64,000 nt of DNA from contig JAPTHR010000009.1 in assembly GCA_029228645.1 (NCBI GenBank), positions 1-64,000 of the forward strand, written 5' to 3'. Positions 9,405 through 20,587 of the stretch are shown here, piece by piece (within the stretch, counting starts at the first letter, position 1; each line of letters opens with the position of its first letter). The position numbers and the translations under genes were made by a program. Source of the stretch: Gammaproteobacteria bacterium Milos-ODIII6. GTDB lineage: Bacteria > Pseudomonadota > Gammaproteobacteria > Chromatiales > Chromatiaceae. Below the pieces are notes generated by a model. That model was given only the letters and a program-made list of their open reading frames with translations, ran no database searches and was not told the origin of the DNA.

Positions 9405-9419
9405 AAACAAAAAGAGAAC
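9405..9419. promoter_or_regulatory. Probable LexA box of recA (AAAC-N7-GAAC)
   Basis: The 15 bases AAACAAAAAGAGAAC differ at one position from the GAACAAAAAGAGAAC found directly upstream of lexA (20143-20157). The direct-repeat layout GAAC-N7-GAAC equals GTTC-N7-GTTC on the other strand. Here it lies just before a possible -10 element TACACT (9424-9429), so a bound repressor would block recA transcription. No CTGT-N8-ACAG box is present in the interval. Confidence 0.7.
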
Positions 9420-9468
9420 AAACTACACTCTGGCCAACAACATCCAACCGCATCCGGGAGAGCACCTG

Positions 9469-10512
9469 ATGGACGACAACCGTAAAAAAGCATTGGCAGC
9501 CGCACTGACGCAGATCGAGAAACAGTTCGGCAAGGGGTCGGTCATGCGCATGGGCGACAGCAGCGCCGTGCGCAACATCGAGGCGATCTCGACCGGCTCC
9601 ATAAGTCTCGATATCGCGCTCGGCATCGGTGGCATCCCGAAGGGACGGGTGGTCGAGATCTACGGCCCCGAGTCATCGGGCAAGACGACCCTGACCCTGC
9701 ACTTTATCGCCGAGTCGCAGAAGGTGGGCGGTACCTGCGCCTTTGTCGATGCCGAACACGCGCTCGACCCTGGCTATGCGGAAAAGCTGGGCGTGGACAT
9801 GGACGAACTGCTGGTATCCCAGCCGGATACCGGCGAACAGGCGCTCGAGATCACCGACATGCTGGTGCGCTCCGGCGCGGTCGATCTGATCGTGGTCGAC
9901 TCGGTTGCAGCGCTCACGCCGAAGGCGGAAATTGAAGGCGACATGGGCGACTCGCACGTTGGCCTGCAGGCGCGTCTCATGTCCCAGGCGCTGCGTAAAC
10001 TCACCGCCAACATCAAGAAGTCCAACTGCATCGTCGTGTTCATCAACCAGATCCGCATGAAAATCGGCGTCATGTTCGGTAACCCCGAAACCACCACCGG
10101 CGGCAATGCGCTCAAGTTCTACTCCTCGGTGCGTCTGGATATCCGCCGCACCGGCGCGATCAAGAAAGGCGATGAAGTGGTCGGTAATGAGACCCGGGTC
10201 AAGGTGGTCAAGAACAAGGTGGCGCCACCCTTCAAGCAGGCTACTTTCGAGATTCTCTACGGTGAGGGTGTGTCGCGCGAAGGCGAGATCATCGAGCTGG
10301 GTGTGGCGCTGGGGCTGATTGAAAAATCCGGCGCCTGGTACAGCCAGGGCGGCAACCGTATCGGCCAGGGCAAAGAGAACGTGCGCAACTTCCTCAAGGA
10401 AAACCCCGAAATTTCGCAATCGATCGAAACCCAGATCCGGGCGGCGATGTTCCCGGATCAGCAGGTGGCCGGGGAGGCCGCGGAAGGCGAGAGTGAGCAG
10501 GCCAAATCCTGA
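9469..10512 (+). CDS. recA: Recombinase RecA
   Basis: The 347-residue protein is RecA, the DNA-dependent ATPase of homologous recombination and the co-protease that triggers LexA self-cleavage. The Walker A motif GPESSGKTT is at residues 66-74. The L1/L2 DNA-binding region includes [19 protein letters not shown] and [21 protein letters not shown] short acidic C-terminus follows. The ATG at 9469 follows GGGAG at correct spacing and gives the canonical length. A lexA-like box lies 50 bases upstream. recX starts inside the last codons. Confidence 0.99.
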
Positions 10513-15175: not shown

Positions 15176-15358
15176 ATGTTGATTCTTACGCGCAGGGTCG
15201 GAGAGACCCTGATGATTGGCGACGAGGTATCGGTCACGGTATTGGGCGTCAAAGGTAACCAGGTCCGTATTGGTGTGAATGCCCCGCGCGATGTCTCTGT
15301 GCACCGTGAGGAAATATACGAACGGATCAAGAACGAACAGCTCTCGCAAGAGGACTGA
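15176..15358 (+). CDS. csrA: Carbon storage regulator CsrA/RsmA
   Basis: The 60-residue protein begins [16 protein letters not shown] and has the RNA-binding [12 protein letters not shown] segment near the end, the full CsrA fold. CsrA is a post-transcriptional regulator that binds GGA motifs in mRNA leaders and represses glycogen synthesis in E. coli. The ATG at 15176 follows AGGAG; a longer frame to 15068 is not needed. A TAGAAT -10-like element at 15075-15080 could give it its own promoter. A large glycogen operon elsewhere in this window is a plausible target. Confidence 0.98.
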
Positions 15359-19472: not shown

Positions 19473-20102
19473 TCAGTGGTAGCGTCGCATCTGGCCAACC
19501 AGTACCCCCTGGATGCGTACCTCGGCCGGGTGGAAGTGCATCGCCCGCATATTGCTGTTGGCGGGATGCAAGACGATTTCGCTGCGTCCTTTTTCGAAAC
19601 GCTTCAGGGTGGCTTCCTCGTCGCGCACCAGGGCGACCACGATTTCCCCATTGCGCGCGCTGTCGCGTTGCTCTATCACCACCCAGTCGCCGTCCAGAAT
19701 GCCTTCGTCGATCATGGAATCGCCACGCACCTCGAGCACGTAGCAGGGCTTGCTGGTGCGCAGCGCGGACGGCACCGCGATGGTGTCCGGATTGCTGATC
19801 GCCTCGATTGGCTGACCCGCCGCGATGTATCCGTACAGCGGCAGTTCCTCCAGGTCGCTCGCGACAGGCTCGTCCTGCGCGGGTGTGTTATCCCGCAAGC
19901 GGATGCCGCGACGCAGGTTGTGCATCGGTTCGATCAGCCCGGCATCGATGAGCGCCTGTATCTGTTTGTGCAGTGATCCGCGCGACTTCAGCCCCAATGC
20001 CTGACAGAGTTCATCCAGGGTTGGGGGATTTGGCATGCGGGGGAGTTGTTCGCGCAGGTAGTCGTAGATTTCCTGCTGTCGCCGGGTCAGGCTGGCTGGC
20101 AT
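19473..20102 (-). CDS. lexA: LexA repressor with an alphaproteobacterium-like DNA-binding helix
   Basis: The 209-residue SOS repressor has a winged-helix N-terminus and a self-cleaving C-terminal domain. The scissile Ala95-Gly96 lies in LYGYIAAGQPIEA, the nucleophile Ser129 in RGDSMIDEGILDGDW and the general-base Lys167 in EEATLKRF. The recognition helix (residues 40-47, SRGSLHKQ) differs from the SPNAAEEH of E. coli and resembles the SKSGIHRL of alphaproteobacterial LexA. A GAAC-N7-GAAC box abuts its -10, so it should repress itself. Confidence 0.97.
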   Translation of the reverse strand: MPASLTRRQQEIYDYLREQLPRMPNPPTLDELCQALGLKSRGSLHKQIQALIDAGLIEPMHNLRRGIRLRDNTPAQDEPVASDLEELPLYGYIAAGQPIEAISNPDTIAVPSALRTSKPCYVLEVRGDSMIDEGILDGDWVVIEQRDSARNGEIVVALVRDEEATLKRFEKGRSEIVLHPANSNMRAMHFHPAEVRIQGVLVGQMRRYH

Positions 20103-20136: not shown

Positions 20137-20157
20137 ATTATAGAACAAAAAGAGAAC
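20137..20157 (-). promoter_or_regulatory. lexA promoter with GAAC-N7-GAAC SOS box
   Basis: On the complement a perfect -10 TATAAT (20142-20137) lies 35 bases before the lexA ATG. Directly upstream, 20143-20157 reads GAAC-AAAAAGA-GAAC on the plus strand, which is GTTC-N7-GTTC on the minus. It fills the spacer of the promoter, an ideal operator position. The same 15-mer with one change occurs at 9405-9419 before recA. Confidence 0.78.
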
Positions 20158-20474: not shown

Positions 20475-20587
20475 CGATGCGCCTTGCTCTGGGTGTTGTA
20501 GGACAGTGGCTGATACCCTGCGACTCTATAGCAAGCCGCGCCCCTGTGGTTCAATAGGTGTTCACACGCCATCCGGGGGGAGTCGTA

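Follow-up and report, generated by a model that had tools for sequence, protein, structure and literature searches.

Judging from sequence, the DNA-damage response of this sulfur-oxidiser-like host appears to be under a LexA and a DNA switch of a kind known from another bacterial class. The window, which here means the whole 64,000 nucleotide stretch analysed, encodes a LexA of a clade designated alt-A. It is very probable that this is a second LexA that has taken over, with its own operator and regulon. Direct comparisons were made of the conservation and spacing of the box, the LexA clades, the coexistence of LexA types, the type of box at recA and imuA according to LexA content, and the linkage of a small protein family to the system.

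The lexA gene of the window and its promoter

The lexA gene is on the minus strand at 19473..20102 and encodes a protein of 209 aa (P0001). It matches TIGR00498 with 169.1 bits, against a cut-off of 110.95, and both the LexA DNA-binding domain (PF01726) and the S24 peptidase domain (PF00717) are over their cut-offs. The protein aligns with the solved E. coli LexA across nearly its whole length, with AAGQP, DSM, and TLKR aligned to AAGEP, MSM, and TVKR; we take the first to be the Ala-Gly cleavage site and the other two to be the Ser/Lys dyad. The recognition helix, SRGSLHKQ, is encoded by codons 40-47 (19962..19985, minus strand) and aligns with SPNAAEEH of E. coli LexA. The initial annotation had likened this helix to the alphaproteobacterial SKSGIHRL, which is borne out. 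SKSGIHRL or SKSGVHRL is present in 16 of 20 LexAs from the same phylum but another class, the remaining four differing and having no box, while many canonical LexAs of the same class have SPNAAEEH or SANAAEEH. The window's own genome (G000) contains a single LexA match (E <= 0.001), and the same search found no canonical LexA.

Upstream of lexA, GAACAAAAAGAGAAC is located at 20143-20157 (plus strand letters), 41-55 nt from the ATG. It reads GTTC-N7-GTTC with the gene and GAAC-N7-GAAC on the plus strand, and in sequence it is the direct repeat given as the alphaproteobacterial LexA operator (PMC8565304, PMC3323433). Within the explanation of an alt-A takeover, this 15-mer is very probably the operator of the window's own LexA, and the box is also found in relatives. 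The likely lexA -10, TATAAT (plus strand ATTATA, 20137..20142, gene on the minus strand), adjoins the operator; by eye, many of the best 80 of 513 related loci also have TATAAT or a near variant after the box. The box had been described as lying on the -10 of lexA. It lies directly upstream of TATAAT, in the spacer, and the -10 itself is left uncovered. The copy with one change that was said to precede recA is present at 9405-9419.

The canonical gammaproteobacterial operator, CTGT-N8-ACAG, is absent from the 200 bp before both genes, as had been stated, with the best match having three mismatches in eight positions at lexA and two in eight at recA. The bare motif GAAC-N7-GAAC occurs three times in the window, where 1.84 are expected, and 28 of 100 shuffled sequences reach three; the other two matches are at 15320-15334 and 20549-20563. 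Since this is not above chance, the significance of the box rests upon its conservation in relatives.

Conservation of the box

Relatives were chosen by LexA protein similarity alone, as the best 80 of 513 loci. Two with less than 60 nt upstream were left out, leaving 78 for counting. Within 160 nt upstream, 63 of the 78 lexA genes have an exact GTTC-N7-GTTC in one orientation or the other and 15 do not; among 1681 control windows of these loci, 8 have it. This upholds the view that the operator differs from the E. coli type and is conserved as one of LexA type. When all spacings from 0 to 20 were compared, only N7 stood out, with 47 loci for GTTC-GTTC and 40 for GAAC-GAAC, the other spacings having 5 or fewer. 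Many relatives among these 80 have two boxes of opposite orientation around the lexA -10.

The genome-wide box scan to which the initial annotation had pointed gave a mixed result. In the window's own genome TGTTC-N7-GTTC has 30 matches and the reversed pattern 12. Of the 30, however, 25 sit inside long frames, two of these (L013, recG, and L028, imuA) only through an over-long reading of the start. In the more specific scan, with one mismatch allowed, GTTCTCNNNNTGTTCT has 12 matches against 10 for the control and is therefore not above it. As neither scan defines a regulon alone, orthologues were compared, and the regulon of the window's own genome rests on a handful of sites that are supported by relatives.

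Across 38 genomes, the strict pattern GTTCTCNNNNTGTTCTA has 17 matches in 12 genomes, against one for the reversed control pattern. Genes were assigned with 4 of the 17 loci set aside, these being three second sites of pairs and the window's own. The sites precede lexA, recA, a small-protein gene, a helicase gene, and in one case a TnpB gene (L160); the site at L165 has no frame of at least 90 residues behind it. The TnpB gene, in G041, directly follows a perfect box and may do so by chance. The helicase gene is beside paired, opposed boxes in G042 and G044, which belong to the window's genus (L158 and L168). That of L168 matches TIGR03817 (DEAH-box helicase) as a partial frame below the cut-off, and the resemblance of that of L158 to it was judged by eye alone. 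In the window's genome GTTCTTGTTATGTTC overlaps what is likely to be the start region of recG (L116, G000:C12:188739), a gene that was named by eye.

At the start of G000:C1 (L112 / L318), an exact GTTC-N7-GTTC box precedes a gene for an integron integrase. Among integron integrases from 30 genomes, one locus in each, four have the exact box (G000, G021, G024, and G029). It is present in 3 of 7 hosts with alt-A LexA only and in 0 of 7 hosts with canonical LexA; the integrase of G004 is a fragment. These counts are no more than suggestive of control of the integrase by the alt-A LexA.

LexA clades and their operators

A total of 104 LexA sequences were included in a tree without an outgroup, 7 of 111 rows that were long or odd (L205, L224, L229, and L266-L269) having been left out; an earlier tree includes all seven. 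Four groups were recovered, each as one side of a branch: alt-A, the group of the window, with 44 rows at 100/99; canonical LexA, including copies from the window's own family, with 29 rows at 100/100; the alphaproteobacterial type with 16 rows at 100/99; and alt-B with 15 rows at 96/96. The alphaproteobacterial group was assigned by kinship (same phylum, other class) and helix, and represents 16 of 20 sequences fetched from many matches in the same phylum. Together, alt-A, alt-B, and the alphaproteobacterial type are split from canonical LexA at 100/100, and the grouping of alt-A with alt-B is weak (65/42).

This tree, of a kind foreseen in the initial annotation, places the window LexA in a clade of its own, excluded from the canonical clade at 100/100 and outside the alphaproteobacterial rows, which group at 100/99 without alt-A. 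It is therefore neither a re-specified LexA of the E. coli type nor one recently acquired from the sampled Alphaproteobacteria.

Among the rows from whole genomes, operator type tracks clade without overlap. GTTC-N7-GTTC precedes lexA in 16 of 18 alt-A, 15 of 15 alt-B, 14 of 16 alphaproteobacterial-type, and 0 of 29 canonical rows. CTGT-N8-ACAG precedes 16 of the 29 canonical genes and is found in 0 of 18, 0 of 15, and 0 of 16 of the other groups, respectively. With operator type following clade in all four groups, the suggestion that helix and operator differ together holds. L229, outside the 104-row tree, carries a GTTC-N7-GTTC box. Two LexAs outside both trees pair helix and box in the same manner, with a canonical helix and CTGT box for L184 and an alt-A helix and GTTC box for L206.

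The alt-A loci are labelled Chromatiales and Methylococcales, and in some relatives canonical and alt LexAs coexist. In this sampling, alt-A is one of at least two direct-repeat LexA lineages in the Gammaproteobacteria. A non-canonical LexA in the Betaproteobacteria and the two lexA genes of Pseudomonas putida are said to be associated with other motifs.

recA and imuA according to LexA content

The recA gene (9469..10512, plus strand) encodes 347 aa and matches TIGR02012 with 572.7 bits. Its predicted LexA operator, AAACAAAAAGAGAAC at 9405..9419 on the plus strand, is 50-64 nt upstream of the ATG at 9469 and has the form AAAC-N7-GAAC, one half-site being off consensus; it is shared with relatives. 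The likely -10, TACACT (9424..9429, plus strand), is also kept in relatives: of the 8 recA promoters whose box is of the AAAC form, 6 have TACACT and the other two TAGAAT or TAGACT.

In 41 genomes of the order, the 200 nt before recA were searched for AAAC-N7-GAAC or GAAC-N7-GAAC or the reverse. Allowing one change in one half-site, the alt-type box is present in 9 of 10 genomes with alt-A LexA only and 1 of 31 others, against 16 of 640 control windows of 200 nt. Counted strictly, one of the 10 has an exact box (G014, GAAC-N7-GAAC), and the off-consensus AAAC half is kept in 8 of the 9 boxed recA promoters, these being the window and seven further alt-A-only genomes. The genomes are not independent, with four of the 10 in one genus and two in another, and the recA tests ignore this kinship. 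The E. coli-type box CTGTATGAATGTACAG is present at recA in 5 of 5 genomes with canonical and alt-B LexA, all of one genus. Neither the alt nor the E. coli-type box was found at recA in seven genomes with alt-A and alt-B or in two with alt-B only. No box was found at recA in 15 other genomes, in which the LexA match is absent or weak and partial, or in the case of G035 odd. The two genomes with canonical and alt-A LexA are divided, the recA of G033 having an alt-type box and that of G023 no box. G005 has alt-A alone, yet has no recA box. These exceptions (G005, G023, and the seven genomes with alt-A and alt-B) indicate that takeover is not general.

A gene for imuA over the family cut-off was identified in 9 of the 41 genomes. 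Of the alt-A-only genomes with imuA, 6 of 6 have the exact box GTTCTATATT(T/G)GTTC before the gene; of the others, 0 of 3 do, one of these being G023, for which only 152 nt of upstream sequence were available. This puts the box at a further DNA-damage gene, one of those named for scanning in the initial annotation. In G033, the canonical lexA is followed by imuA, approximately 500 nt downstream and in the same orientation.

In four genomes (G007, G010, G016, and G040) RecA was matched in two halves around position 200 within one open frame of 494-732 aa, as an intein would give. Three of these have no LexA match and G040 has a weak partial one.

A small SOS-boxed protein family

In the window's own genome, a 56-residue open frame (G000:C22:33074-33241) has two boxes, one on either side of its promoter. 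It belongs to a family of approximately 50 residues with an M-x-D-Q-V motif (L330-L349, L377-L383, L385, and L388). A protein search of 96 genomes from the taxonomic family matched it in 20, including the query's own, and all 20 genes have an exact box upstream, with two opposed boxes in 14. Because the query gene was found through its box, 19 of the 20 are independent. Two further members were identified in the order and seven elsewhere in the class, where 369 genomes were searched; L384, a candidate eighth member at the class level, was rejected as a false match inside a long frame. Counting the query's own, 27 of 29 small-protein genes have the box upstream, against 3 of 376 control windows. 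There is no exact box upstream of L378. L383 starts just after a LexA-like C-terminus and so looks like part of a lexA operon.

Within the 41 genomes of the order, 7 of the 10 with alt-A LexA only encode the small protein, and none of the other 31 does. When 15 further genomes with the small protein were typed by LexA helix, 14 had alt-A, with canonical LexA too in G051 and G233; the carrier G224, which is 84% complete, shows canonical LexA only. A related frame is present 4-129 nt after lexA in 26 of the best 80 of 513 lexA loci. All 26 are within the 35 loci L076-L110, and most of the 26 are labelled Methylococcales. On a plasmid of Methylobacter sp. YRD-M1 (L389, NZ_CP091426.1), umuDC is divergent from an alt-A-like lexA and small gene, and the box before this lexA is GTTCTCTTTTTGTTC.

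The lexA-linked set (A2) was picked with the motif from the boxed set (A1) and includes the A1-like L053, thus the profile match between them (97%, 25 columns) is not independent. A motif-independent profile search of the lexA loci gave a weak result of 26 rows with E from 1e-10 to 0.8, of which 24 are directly after lexA, one is further downstream (L053), and one is spurious, on the other strand. The conserved part of the protein is its first 25 or so residues (M-x-D-Q). By hydropathy, a hydrophobic stretch at the C-terminus is seen in 17 of the 27 lexA-linked members and not in 10, Crenothrix-like and others; by eye only, most of the boxed set look to have one.

Neither set gave a credible match, the boxed set having been compared with Pfam, NCBIfam, PDB sequences, PHROGs, and PADLOC, and the lexA-linked set with Pfam and NCBIfam. 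One member compared with phage records had none either. These searches (Pfam, NCBIfam, PHROGs, and PDB, with Pfam and NCBIfam for the lexA-linked set) likewise gave no homology to a known SOS division inhibitor. Among the matches listed from the open-licence literature, which most subscription journals are outside of, no report of the family was found in the passages covered.

The small protein is probably made when DNA is damaged. SosA and YneA are small SOS division inhibitors with a single membrane helix, encoded beside lexA (PMC6851548). The small protein resembles them in its very small size, in the one hydrophobic stretch that it often has, and in being either preceded by a LexA box or linked to lexA. 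It differs in having no sequence relation that was found and a conserved part that is the N-terminal motif, in a gene that is either after lexA on the same strand or separate from it, and in the 10 of 27 lexA-linked members without a hydrophobic stretch. Given the position of SosA and YneA beside lexA, the best guess by analogy is that it would be a checkpoint protein inhibiting division upon DNA damage; a damage-induced membrane toxin is the alternative.

Origin of the alt-A system

It is proposed that a dimer of the alt-A LexA would bind the direct repeat GTTC-N7-GTTC at the lexA, recA, and imuA promoters and block transcription, with the integron integrase and small-protein genes probably also among its targets. 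DNA damage would generate RecA filaments, these would lead to self-cleavage of LexA, and the genes would be turned on. In the lineage of the window, the second LexA would have taken over the regulon once the canonical LexA was lost; no canonical LexA was found in this lineage and the alt-A box is at recA and imuA, which fits such a takeover. We infer binding, repression, and induction, as well as the direction of takeover and the function of the small protein, from the comparisons made.

The retaking of an SOS network by a diverged second LexA after loss of the primary LexA has already been postulated (PMC8565304). The present case is like it in having relatives with canonical and second LexA and with the second alone, and matching recA boxes in some genera. 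It differs from what is described there in being a comparative series in which the direction is unrooted.

Three other origins of the box and its LexA can be set against takeover by a second LexA. An ancestor may have taken lexA and the operator type from an alphaproteobacterium, after which the recA and imuA promoters adapted. The operator type is shared, the helix is similar to the alphaproteobacterial one, and alt-A, alt-B, and the alphaproteobacterial type are on one side of the 100/100 branch that separates them from canonical LexA. A title cited in PMC3323433 also names the lateral acquisition of an alphaproteobacterial lexA by Acidobacterium. However, the alphaproteobacterial LexAs (16 rows, in a tree without an outgroup) form their own group at 100/99 that does not enclose alt-A, and the span of alt-A over Chromatiales and Methylococcales loci means that any transfer would be old. 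Replacement of lexA by transfer had been put forward in the initial annotation, and in any recent sense it is not supported, the 16 alphaproteobacterial and 44 alt-A rows being separate, each at 100/99; an older lateral replacement is unlikely.

Less probable still is a change in place, with alt-A arising from the canonical gammaproteobacterial LexA through alteration of operator and helix, which had also been suggested. While the window and its relatives are Gammaproteobacteria and helix and operator do differ together, simple re-specification is disfavoured by the coexistence of canonical and alt LexAs in several genomes, and canonical LexAs, including those of the window's family, form one group at 100/100 without alt-A. 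That an A-rich promoter sequence matches the motif by chance would agree with the lack of enrichment in the window (3 against 1.84 expected), but has next to no probability and is refuted by the tests of conservation in relatives: upstream of both lexA and the small gene the box is strongly enriched and specific to N7, and at imuA it is present in 6 of 6 alt-A-only genomes.

The window's LexA differs from both known systems that it resembles. It shares a direct-repeat operator and a helix of the S-K/R-x-x-x-H type with alphaproteobacterial LexA, but differs in protein clade, host class, and helix sequence, and in the two opposed boxes that flank the lexA -10 in many of its relatives. With canonical gammaproteobacterial LexA, which uses CTGT-N8-ACAG, it shares the domain layout and cleavage residues, but its clade, helix, and operator are different, and some relatives have both the canonical protein and a direct-repeat LexA. 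The open-licence literature, which leaves out most subscription journals, gave no account of a GTTC-N7-GTTC SOS operator in the Gammaproteobacteria among the matches listed or in the passages covered (PMC8565304, PMC3323433, PMC3108266, PMC2248561, PMC6851548).

A broader proposal is that a large gammaproteobacterial group, of Chromatiales-like sulfur oxidisers and methanotrophs, runs its SOS response with its own direct-repeat LexA in place of the canonical one, and that its checkpoint effector is a new, mostly membrane-anchored family of about 50 residues, with an N-terminal M-x-D-Q-V motif, that stops division after damage. This is tentative, with somewhat less than an even chance of being right as a whole. 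The series of related genomes, in which canonical LexA, a second LexA, and recA boxes of either kind can be compared, makes the postulated takeover testable. The prediction for these sulfur oxidisers and methanotrophs is of a small, unnamed, LexA-linked protein family that probably acts in a damage checkpoint.
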